This document shows, one piece after another, positions 26,822 through 29,722 of a stretch of DNA of 38,878 bases (position 1 is its first letter; every line of letters begins with the position of its first letter). This DNA comes from an uncultured Traorella sp. (GTDB lineage: Bacteria > Bacillota_I > Bacilli_A > Erysipelotrichales > Erysipelotrichaceae), in the NCBI RefSeq assembly GCF_944327115.1, contig NZ_CALVGS010000035.1, positions 1-38,878 of the forward strand, given 5' to 3'. The notes under the pieces were generated by a model that worked only from the letters and a program-made list of their open reading frames with translations, ran no database searches and had not been told where the DNA came from. The translations under genes were made by a program, and so were the position numbers.

Positions 26822-26916
26822 TTAAACAATTTTCTTTTTTTGTCCGTTTTCTCTTAAATCAAATTCTGATTCATATTATTTTTCTGATATAATAAATACA
26901 TTGCGAGGTGAATATC

Positions 26917-28275
26917 ATGAATCAATCTGCTGATTTGGGACATGGTTCCGTAGGAAAGCTCTTATTCAAGCTTGCCTTGCCTGCCATTGTCGCACAGATC
27001 ATCAACGTTCTATACAACATGGTCGATCGTATGTATATCGGTCATATTGAAGGTATCGGCGATGTTGCCTTAACAGGAGTAGGGGTGACCATGCCGATCA
27101 TCATGGCAGTGAGTGCTTTTGCGGCACTTGTCAGCATGGGTTCTGCTCCAAGAGCCAGCATCATGATGGGGCGCAAGAAAAACGATGAAGCAGAGAATAT
27201 CCTTGGCAACAGCTTTGTGCTGCTGATCGTCATTGCCATCATCACCACAGCCTTGATTCTTATTTTCGGATGGGATCTGCTGCTCTTCTTTGGAGCGAGT
27301 GAAAATACGGTACAGTATGGATGGGAATATCTTCAGATCTATGCGATCGGAACGATCTTTGTTCAGCTGACATTAGGACTCAACGCTTTCATCAGCGCAC
27401 AGGGATTTTCTACCGAAGCGATGAAAACGATCTTGATCGGAGCCATCCTCAACATCATCCTGGATCCTATTTTTATGTTCCCGTTAAACATGGGTGTTCA
27501 AGGGGCTGCACTGGCTACGATCCTTTCCCAGGCAGTTTCCTGTGTATGGGTCATTCTGTTCTTATGTGGAAAGAAAACATCTTTGAAGCTGAGAAAAAAA
27601 TATCTGACATTACGTCCGGCTGTTTTCCTTCCATGTATCGCTTTAGGACTATCACCTTTTATCATGCAGTTTACAGAAAGCGTCATCACAGTCTGCTTCA
27701 ACACATCGTTATTAAAGTATGGAGGAGATATCGCTGTTGGTGCCATGACGATCCTTTCCAGCGTCATGCAGTTCTCCATGCTGCCGCTTCAGGGCATGAC
27801 CCAGGGCTCCCAGCCAATCGTATCTTATAATTTTGGTGCCGGTAATTTAGATCGCGTGAAAAAAGCCTTTATGTATCTTTTGGTCGTTTGCATGATCTAT
27901 TCTACGACGCTTTGGGCACTCAGCATCTTTACGCCGCAGCTGTTTGTCAGCATTTTTACCGATAAGCCTGAGCTTGCAGCTTATACCCAGAAAGCCTTGC
28001 GTATCTATATGGCAACAAGCCTTCTGTTTGGGGCACAGATTGCCTGCCAGCAAACCTTTATCGCTTTAGGCAATGCCAAGACCAGCGTTTTTCTGGCAGT
28101 CTTACGAAAAATTATCCTATTGATTCCTTTGATCTATATCTTACCGAATCTCTTTACTGATCAGGCAAACGCAGTATTTATGGCCGAACCGGTTGCTGAT
28201 TTTATCGCTGTCTGTACGACCGTTACGATGTTTGTGATTTATTTCAAACGTTTATTAACTCAAAAAGCAAAGTAA
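26917..28275 (+). CDS. MATE-family multidrug/toxin exporter
   Basis: A 452-aa inner-membrane protein with about 12 hydrophobic spans in two related halves. It opens with GHGSVGKLLFKLALPAIV, typical of MATE proteins, and has the VLYNMVDRMYIGH and QPIVSYNFGA segments seen in the MepA/DinF branch. It likely exports cationic drugs or metabolites using Na+ or H+; the substrate is unknown. Start set at the ATG at 26917 after GAGGTG; the GTG at 26908 is part of that ribosome site. A TATAAT box lies at 26887-26892. It converges with the TetR gene. Confidence 0.92.
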   Translation: MNQSADLGHGSVGKLLFKLALPAIVAQIINVLYNMVDRMYIGHIEGIGDVALTGVGVTMPIIMAVSAFAALVSMGSAPRASIMMGRKKNDEAENILGNSFVLLIVIAIITTALILIFGWDLLLFFGASENTVQYGWEYLQIYAIGTIFVQLTLGLNAFISAQGFSTEAMKTILIGAILNIILDPIFMFPLNMGVQGAALATILSQAVSCVWVILFLCGKKTSLKLRKKYLTLRPAVFLPCIALGLSPFIMQFTESVITVCFNTSLLKYGGDIAVGAMTILSSVMQFSMLPLQGMTQGSQPIVSYNFGAGNLDRVKKAFMYLLVVCMIYSTTLWALSIFTPQLFVSIFTDKPELAAYTQKALRIYMATSLLFGAQIACQQTFIALGNAKTSVFLAVLRKIILLIPLIYILPNLFTDQANAVFMAEPVADFIAVCTTVTMFVIYFKRLLTQKAK

Positions 28276-28290
28276 TATTTGCTTTTTTTT
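28262..28290. terminator. Terminator between the MATE and TetR genes
   Basis: AAAAAGCAAA and TTTGCTTTTT pair over 10 bp around 6 nt, with a run of T to 28290. The stem includes the MATE stop codon. The minus strand also has an A/T run, so it may serve the TetR gene too. Confidence 0.75.
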
Positions 28291-28831
28291 ACATTTTTAA
28301 ACATTCTGAAAGAATCCGGGCGACCTTTCGGATCTCAAGTTGGCAATCCTGATCCACCCATTTTTTTAAAGTAATCGTAAAGCCTGCCTGATAACAGACA
28401 AAACGTAATGACATCACCTCTTCATCATAAATACCCCGCTCATGAAAATAAGGTAAAATGATCGTATCCCACATTTCTTTTAGACCGTCTTTTAAAGGAA
28501 AGTTCGTATTCATTTCAAAATAAAGTTTATAAAAATGCCTGTTTTCCTTTACATGCTCAGCAAAGATTTCATAAGAGCGAAATGACATAAATTCAATCCT
28601 CACAGGCTGGTTCTCATAGGTTTCGATTAATTGTTTAAATATCGAAGACTGAACATCCTCAAATAGTTCAACGATATCTTCATAATGCTGATAGAAAGTT
28701 GTCCGATTGATCCCGACATCACGACAAATCTGTGCAATATTCACTTTTTTCTTTTCATGAATGAGTTTCAAAAGCGTATCTTTGATTCGCTGATGGGTTT
28801 GTTGATAATGTTTATTCTTTTTATGATTCAT
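28289..28831 (-). CDS. TetR-family transcriptional repressor
   Basis: A 180-aa protein with an N-terminal helix-turn-helix (VNIAQICRDVGINRTTFYQHY, about residues 35-55) and an all-helical C-terminal ligand domain of the type found in small TetR/AcrR regulators. It is transcribed away from the SDR gene, and a single large palindrome between them supplies both promoters, so it very likely represses itself and the dehydrogenase. Ribosome site GGAGG. The ligand is probably a substrate of the dehydrogenase, which is inference. Confidence 0.9.
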   Translation of the reverse strand: MNHKKNKHYQQTHQRIKDTLLKLIHEKKKVNIAQICRDVGINRTTFYQHYEDIVELFEDVQSSIFKQLIETYENQPVRIEFMSFRSYEIFAEHVKENRHFYKLYFEMNTNFPLKDGLKEMWDTIILPYFHERGIYDEEVMSLRFVCYQAGFTITLKKWVDQDCQLEIRKVARILSECLKM

Positions 28832-28871
28832 AATGCCTCCAAATAATCAACATATGATGTTTTTTTGATGA

Positions 28872-28911
28872 TTGATAAGATCATTTTAAAATCTTATAAT
28901 GATTTTATCAA
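28872..28911. promoter_or_regulatory. Palindromic operator containing two opposed promoters
   Basis: Arms TTGATAAGATCATT (28872-28885) and AATGATTTTATCAA (28898-28911) match at 13 of 14 positions around 12 nt. On the plus strand TTGATA-17-TATAAT (28872-28900) serves the SDR gene. On the minus strand TTGATA-17-TAAAAT (28911-28883) serves tetR. Each -35 is an outer arm of the palindrome, so one bound TetR dimer pair would block both. Confidence 0.85.
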
Positions 28912-28931
28912 GAGTGAACGGAGGTAAAACA

Positions 28932-29681
28932 ATGAAGAAACAGCTTGAAAACAAAGTCTTTTTGATTACAGGTGCCGCTAGCGGCATGGGAAAAGCAACC
29001 GTCACAAAATTTGAAGCTGAAGGTGCTTTGATCGTTGCGGTTGACCGCAATAAAGATGTATTGAATGTTTGGGGTGGACATGAACATGTAACACCTGTGA
29101 TTGCTGATGTGACAGATCTGGATAATATCAAGAATATGATAAATATTGTTAAAGAAACATATGGACATTTGGACGGTGTATGCAACATCGCAGGCATCAA
29201 TGATCTCAGCTATCCGTTATTAGAAACTGATGATGAAAGATGGGATACGGTCATGAACATTGACTTAAAAGCTCCTTTCAGAATCCTTCGGGAAGCCATG
29301 CCTCTCATGATTGAAAATGGTGGCGGAAGCATCGTCAACATCGGTTCCTATGCAGCATTAAGAGGTAATCATGGACCCAGCTACACAGCTGCCAAAGCAG
29401 GTTTAGAAGGCCTGACAAAAAGTATTGCTTTTAGTTTTGCGAAAAACAATATCCGTTGTAACATCGTTCATCCGGGAGGATGTGCGACTAATCTTACCCT
29501 TGGCGGTCAAAAATATCATGAAGCCCAGGAAAGCCTTTCAAATTTAATCAAGGCAATGCCGGTCAAGAGTTTTGGACAGCCTGAAGAAATTGCCAATATC
29601 TGTGCATTCTTATGCAGTGACGAAGCAACATGGATCAACGGAGCAGTGATTTCCGTAGACGGCGGTATGTCGGTTTGTTAA
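28932..29681 (+). CDS. Short-chain dehydrogenase/reductase, classical SDR
   Basis: A 249-aa NAD(P)-dependent oxidoreductase. The cofactor motif is TGAASGMG (13-20), Asp38 at the end of the second strand favours NAD(H), NIAG is at 85-88, and the catalytic residues Ser139, Tyr151 and Lys155 are all present. The end EATWINGAVISVDGGMSVC is typical of the FabG/glucose-1-dehydrogenase/bile-acid dehydrogenase class. The substrate is not evident; a steroid or bile-acid hydroxyl is one possibility in a gut bacterium. Start at 28932 with GGAGG upstream. Controlled by the adjacent TetR. Confidence 0.92.
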   Translation: MKKQLENKVFLITGAASGMGKATVTKFEAEGALIVAVDRNKDVLNVWGGHEHVTPVIADVTDLDNIKNMINIVKETYGHLDGVCNIAGINDLSYPLLETDDERWDTVMNIDLKAPFRILREAMPLMIENGGGSIVNIGSYAALRGNHGPSYTAAKAGLEGLTKSIAFSFAKNNIRCNIVHPGGCATNLTLGGQKYHEAQESLSNLIKAMPVKSFGQPEEIANICAFLCSDEATWINGAVISVDGGMSVC

Positions 29682-29683
29682 TG

Positions 29684-29722
29684 AAAAATTCCTTTCTTTA
29701 ATGCAAGAAAGGAATTTTTTTT
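29684..29722. terminator. Terminator after the SDR gene
   Basis: A perfect 15-bp stem (29684-29698 with 29705-29719) around a 6-nt loop and a run of T on the plus side. The minus strand also ends in five T, so it can act both ways. Confidence 0.85.

Follow-up and report, generated by a model that had tools for sequence, protein, structure and literature searches.

A candidate TetR operator beside predicted overlapping divergent promoters of tetR and an SDR gene in an uncultured Traorella sp.

In the genome of an uncultured Traorella sp., a gene for a TetR-family regulator (tetR) and an SDR oxidoreductase gene diverge from a gap of 100 bp, and 40 bp of this gap (positions 28872-28911) look like a pair of overlapping divergent sigma-A promoters, one for each gene. 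The same 40 bp form an inverted repeat, which in the original prediction was taken to be a single operator for both genes. We consider it rather probable that these 40 bp are mostly promoter structure and that the TetR protein acts from an adjacent dyad, TCAACA-N13-TGATGA (28847-28871), in the tetR leader. Judging from its agreement with a consensus of tetR leaders (12/12), its conservation and its recurrence, this dyad is the most likely binding site of TetR, which would thus bind beside the palindrome rather than on it.

The tetR gene (28289-28831, reverse strand) encodes a protein of 180 amino acids, and the SDR gene (28932-29681, forward strand, with its ATG at 28932) encodes one of 249 amino acids. 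Both genes have a GGAGG ribosome-binding site, at 28836-28840 on the reverse strand for tetR and at 28920-28924 on the forward strand for the SDR gene. A terminator-like stem, predicted directly 3' of the SDR stop codon (29683-29720, forward strand), suggests that the SDR transcript contains a single gene. A MATE efflux gene (positions 26908-28275 of the window, that is, of the whole analysed stretch of 38,878 bp) is convergent with tetR, with 13 bases between its end and the end of tetR at 28289; the order of MATE gene and tetR is likewise found in Traorella massiliensis.

By its C-terminal domain, which matches TetR_C_8 above the cut-off (29.9 vs 26.1 bits), and by its N-terminal HTH region, in which the TTFY residues align with other TetR proteins, the regulator is a member of the TetR family. 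Matches to AcrR and DhaS were partial and below the cut-off; an identity with DhaS (TIGR02366) was rejected, as the score of 29.2 bits (E 8.4e-07) compares with an equivalog cut-off of 129. The enzyme looks like a generic SDR. The curated cut-off was reached by none of the 25 NCBIfam families listed, and no molecule name among the best 60 of its 666 PDB matches refers to a bile acid or a hydroxysteroid. A screen of bile acids and steroids as substrates of the SDR and ligands of TetR had been suggested, and within these two sets we find no link to them and no sign of a bile-acid enzyme.

The palindrome reads TTGATAAGATCATTTTAAAATCTTATAATGATTTTATCAA. Its coordinates, the promoter hexamers, the 17-bp spacers and the 14-bp arms with 13 of 14 positions matched all proved exact on recheck; widened to 18 nt, the arms are 89% complementary. 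The predicted SDR promoter, TTGATA-17-TATAAT (28872-28900, forward strand), agrees with the consensus at 11/12 positions, and the predicted tetR promoter, TTGATA-17-TAAAAT (28883-28911, reverse strand), at 10/12. Placed, as is usual, seven bases beyond the -10 box, the start sites would lie at about 28907 for the SDR gene and about 28876 for tetR, roughly 31 bp apart. The two -10 boxes (28895-28900 and 28888-28883) are separate, with 6 bp between them. As expected for an overlapping divergent pair, the predicted promoters are on opposite strands, precede divergent genes and overlap in their core elements.

Neither the promoter pair nor the inverted repeat is due to chance. The window contains a single overlapping pair of promoters on opposite strands in which both score at least 10/12 and which overlap by at least 15 bp; the mean number of such pairs in 40 Markov-1 simulations of the window was 0.025. 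When the 100-bp gap was shuffled 1000 times, no inverted repeat as good as this one (13/14 arms, spacer up to 20) was found. Note that the two features are not independent evidence, since two good promoters that face each other create symmetry by themselves: in this geometry, hexamer agreement imposes it at 9 of the 14 arm positions. With the four hexamers fixed and the rest random, arms of at least 13/14 appeared in 3.4% of 200,000 trials; if both promoters were merely required to score at least 10/12, the share was 0.36% of 100,000 trials. The palindrome is therefore partly, but not wholly, a by-product of the promoters, and the symmetry beyond what the hexamers predict is a modest excess. 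We take the hexamers at 28872-28911 to be nearer to the consensus than usual, which makes competition between polymerases a plausible prediction, and it seems reasonable that polymerases at the shared 40 bp would sterically exclude each other.

Matches to the SDR were found in 2 of the 272 genomes of the family (E <= 1e-60), while a class-wide search of 395 genomes (E <= 1e-62) gave one match, the genome itself, and those other members of the genus that were searched gave none. Only one other genome has the gene pair, so the conservation of the gap is judged from two sequences. In this second genome, that of T. massiliensis (contig NZ_LT629967.1), tetR is 83% and the SDR 91% identical, and the flanking genes, including the MATE transporter, are in unchanged order. 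Both -10 hexamers and both 17-bp spacings are unchanged, the -35 hexamers have become TTGATG and TTGCTA, the 40 bp are identical at 31 positions, and the match between the arms has gone down from 13/14 to 11/14. In other words, the promoters were kept and the palindrome was not. A comparison of related intergenic regions had been proposed as a check on the arms and the promoter spacing together; in this one other genome it speaks for the spacing and the -10 boxes and against the arms. Together with the promoter scores, it bears out the view that tetR and the SDR gene would be transcribed from two promoters within the same 40 bp. On the other hand, the symmetry of an operator should be kept in orthologous loci, and in the single other locus found the arms stand at 11/14. 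The dyad at 28847-28871 is identical at 23 of 25 positions.

The dyad directly abuts the palindrome, and its last base lies immediately before the -35 box of the SDR promoter. Relative to the inferred start sites it would span positions +6 to +30 of tetR and approximately -60 to -36 of the SDR gene. It agrees with the consensus YCANCA-N13-TGTYGR at 12/12 positions, compared with 9/12 at best within the palindrome. By the same scoring, a compact variant, TCAACA-N2-TGATGT (28847-28860, 11/12), has its left half-site in common with the N13 dyad.

The consensus recurs upstream of related tetR genes, with identities down to approximately 20%, and mostly between the predicted start site and the ribosome-binding site. 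From 72 loci we obtained 67 upstream regions (in the rest, the start codon or the N-terminal match was lacking). After removal of L031-L033, which repeat two loci, the pattern was scored at all spacings from 0 to 25 in the remaining 64 regions. At a spacing of 13, the pattern is present at 11/12 or better in 31 of the 64 regions and at 12/12 in 20, whereas all other spacings give at most 18 regions at 11/12 or better and at most 3 at 12/12. The 18 regions, found at N16, are probably a register of the N13 sites shifted by 3 bp. The dyad was first noticed in the same 64 regions in which it was counted here, and the independent count is that of a hold-out set. It consists of 40 further TetR upstream regions from matches without a locus in the first sample, namely all 29 remaining from one search (the paralogue from the same genome aside) and 11 of those listed in another. 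The dyad is found at 11/12 or better in 14 of these regions and at 12/12 in 6, and the other 26 are without it at 11/12. Shuffling the hold-out regions 200 times gave a mean of 0.56 regions (maximum 3) at 11/12 or better and a mean of 0 at 12/12. The compact form with a spacing of 2 is present in 8 of the 40 at 11/12. Many of the rows are related to each other; for example, five are from Bacillus, and L019, L020 and L026 are near-identical.

A promoter could be assigned to 30 of 31 sites, those of this locus and of T. massiliensis among them, and only weakly in the case of distant tetR genes; in 27 of these 30 the dyad begins after the predicted start site. The motif [NH]R[TSG]TFY was seen in the recognition region of every one of the 32 regulators whose genes have a site of at least 11/12, against 13 of 33 without one (counted by eye in related rows, uncorrected). 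In the genome itself, TCAWCA-N13-TGTYGR occurs at 8 places and the reversed pattern, used as a control, at none. Six of the places fall within open frames, including one frame at a contig end; the only two outside such frames are tetR leaders, the one studied here and that of another tetR gene, on contig C16. This second gene (dyad at G000:C16:30106-30130; L073, L081) is approximately 28% identical and has a leader with both a compact palindrome and an N13 dyad, TCATCA-N13-TGTTGA. One further locus, L025, in which an SDR gene with 35% identity diverges from a distant tetR, was set aside; the dyad is absent there at 11/12.

Compact palindromes of the type AACAAC..GTTGTT are found near the -35 region, upstream of the N13 dyad, in L007, L013, L014, L070 and L073. 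They have the half-site TGTTG in common with the N13 dyad, which suggests that one regulator may use two operator geometries. In some tetR leaders (L061, L067, L072, L016, L021) there appear, by eye, to be two successive N13 dyads.

If TetR acts from the dyad, the locus could work as follows. Polymerase would occupy the shared promoter DNA in one orientation or the other and produce either the tetR or the SDR transcript. TetR bound at 28847-28871 would shut off its own gene; the same bound protein would crowd the -35 and upstream region of the SDR promoter, so that the SDR gene would probably be held down as well, and a ligand would free both genes. The idea that one operator controls both genes may therefore still hold with the neighbouring dyad as that operator, while the evidence from the arms and the half-sites speaks against the palindrome in this role.

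A serious alternative, although we think it unlikely, is that TetR at 28847-28871 blocks tetR only and in this way frees the SDR promoter or activates it, like an activator bound upstream. The site would be well placed for this, being in the tetR leader and yet wholly upstream of the SDR -35 box, and competition between polymerases at divergent promoters has been demonstrated once one direction was strengthened (PMC12825309). The NCBIfam model for DhaS (TIGR02366) is named as an activator, but this family match is weak, far below the cut-off, and a site that touches the edge of the -35 box could as easily hinder the polymerase.

Less likely again is that TetR binds the 40-bp palindrome itself, with one operator spanning both promoters and each arm (28872-28885 and 28898-28911) serving as a sub-site through the small palindrome TGATNNNATCA that it holds. 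Both arms do contain TGATNNNATCA, their 13/14 match is above what the hexamers require (the 3.4% given above), and long operators for two dimers occur in the TetR family, for example with QacR (28 bp), CgmR (32 bp) and CprB (22 bp) (PMC4150764). However, TGATNNNATCA is missing in T. massiliensis, where the arms have also decayed although the promoters stay, and the palindrome does not resemble the half-sites of related tetR leaders, which are matched perfectly next door. Finally, we reject the very improbable reading that the leader dyad is an RNA hairpin beside the ribosome-binding site and not a DNA operator: the dyad does lie within the transcribed leader in most rows, but all six pairs are possible in only 6 of 50 distinct sites, in 15 of the 50 the third pair, counted from the loop, would be T against T, and a fixed spacing of 13 bp fits helical phasing better than a loop.

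With the dyad as the preferred operator, a more general reading can be put forward tentatively, and with considerable doubt. A large group of Firmicutes TetR proteins with the [NH]R[TSG]TFY helix may share an operator in their own transcribed leaders, YCANCA-N13-TGTYGR, and use its compact form (N2/N3) at -35 regions. In the Traorella locus, the leader operator would be set against a symmetric promoter with polymerase exclusion, and binding of TetR would choose the direction in which polymerase is loaded. Among the matches listed for DhaS operators, TetR sites with a 13-bp spacer and TetR regulon motifs, in a literature to which subscription papers mostly do not belong, the dyad was not found, and we do not claim that it is absent from print. 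What has been gained is a different candidate operator that can be tested. As the dyad precedes many tetR genes, one footprint could yield predictions of binding sites for a whole group of uncharacterised regulators from gut bacteria.

As an arrangement, overlapping divergent promoters are ordinary, and their combination with a TetR-family regulator has been on record since Tn10. The pair described here illustrates it neatly in a compact form, and more interest attaches to the dyad in the leader. The overlapping divergent promoters of Tn10 tetR/tetA were reportedly described by Bertrand et al. (1983). As in Traorella, regulator and target genes diverge, their promoters overlap and the regulator belongs to the TetR family. 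The operators of Tn10 sit inside the promoter region, whereas here the best operator candidate is beside the promoters, in the tetR leader.

A second comparison is with bidirectional promoters described in E. coli and Salmonella, acrR/acrA among them, where pseudo-symmetric DNA binds polymerase in two orientations (PMC12825309, PMC10268837). There, too, a TetR-family protein is involved, as the autorepressor AcrR represses both RNAs at acrR/acrA (PMC12825309). In five of five E. coli bidirectional promoters tested, basal transcription was too low for competition, which was seen after one -35 had been improved (PMC12825309). With this caution, the published work supports both parts of the scheme proposed here, joint repression and polymerase competition. 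Bidirectional promoters of this kind are defined by a shared -10 and by start sites at a distance of 7-25 bp, with 18 bp the most frequent value (PMC10268837). The Traorella pair would fall outside this Grainger/Warman definition because about 31 bp lie between its inferred starts and it has two distinct -10 boxes. With respect to the operator, the closest likeness is to the QacR and CprB type, since operators of 22-32 bp for two dimers are known in the TetR family (PMC4150764). Like these, the 25-bp dyad is longer than a site for a single dimer and is of the same size class; they bind two dimers, whereas the Traorella dyad is known from its sequence, with the TGTYGR half-sites and the N13 spacing defined in the present analysis.
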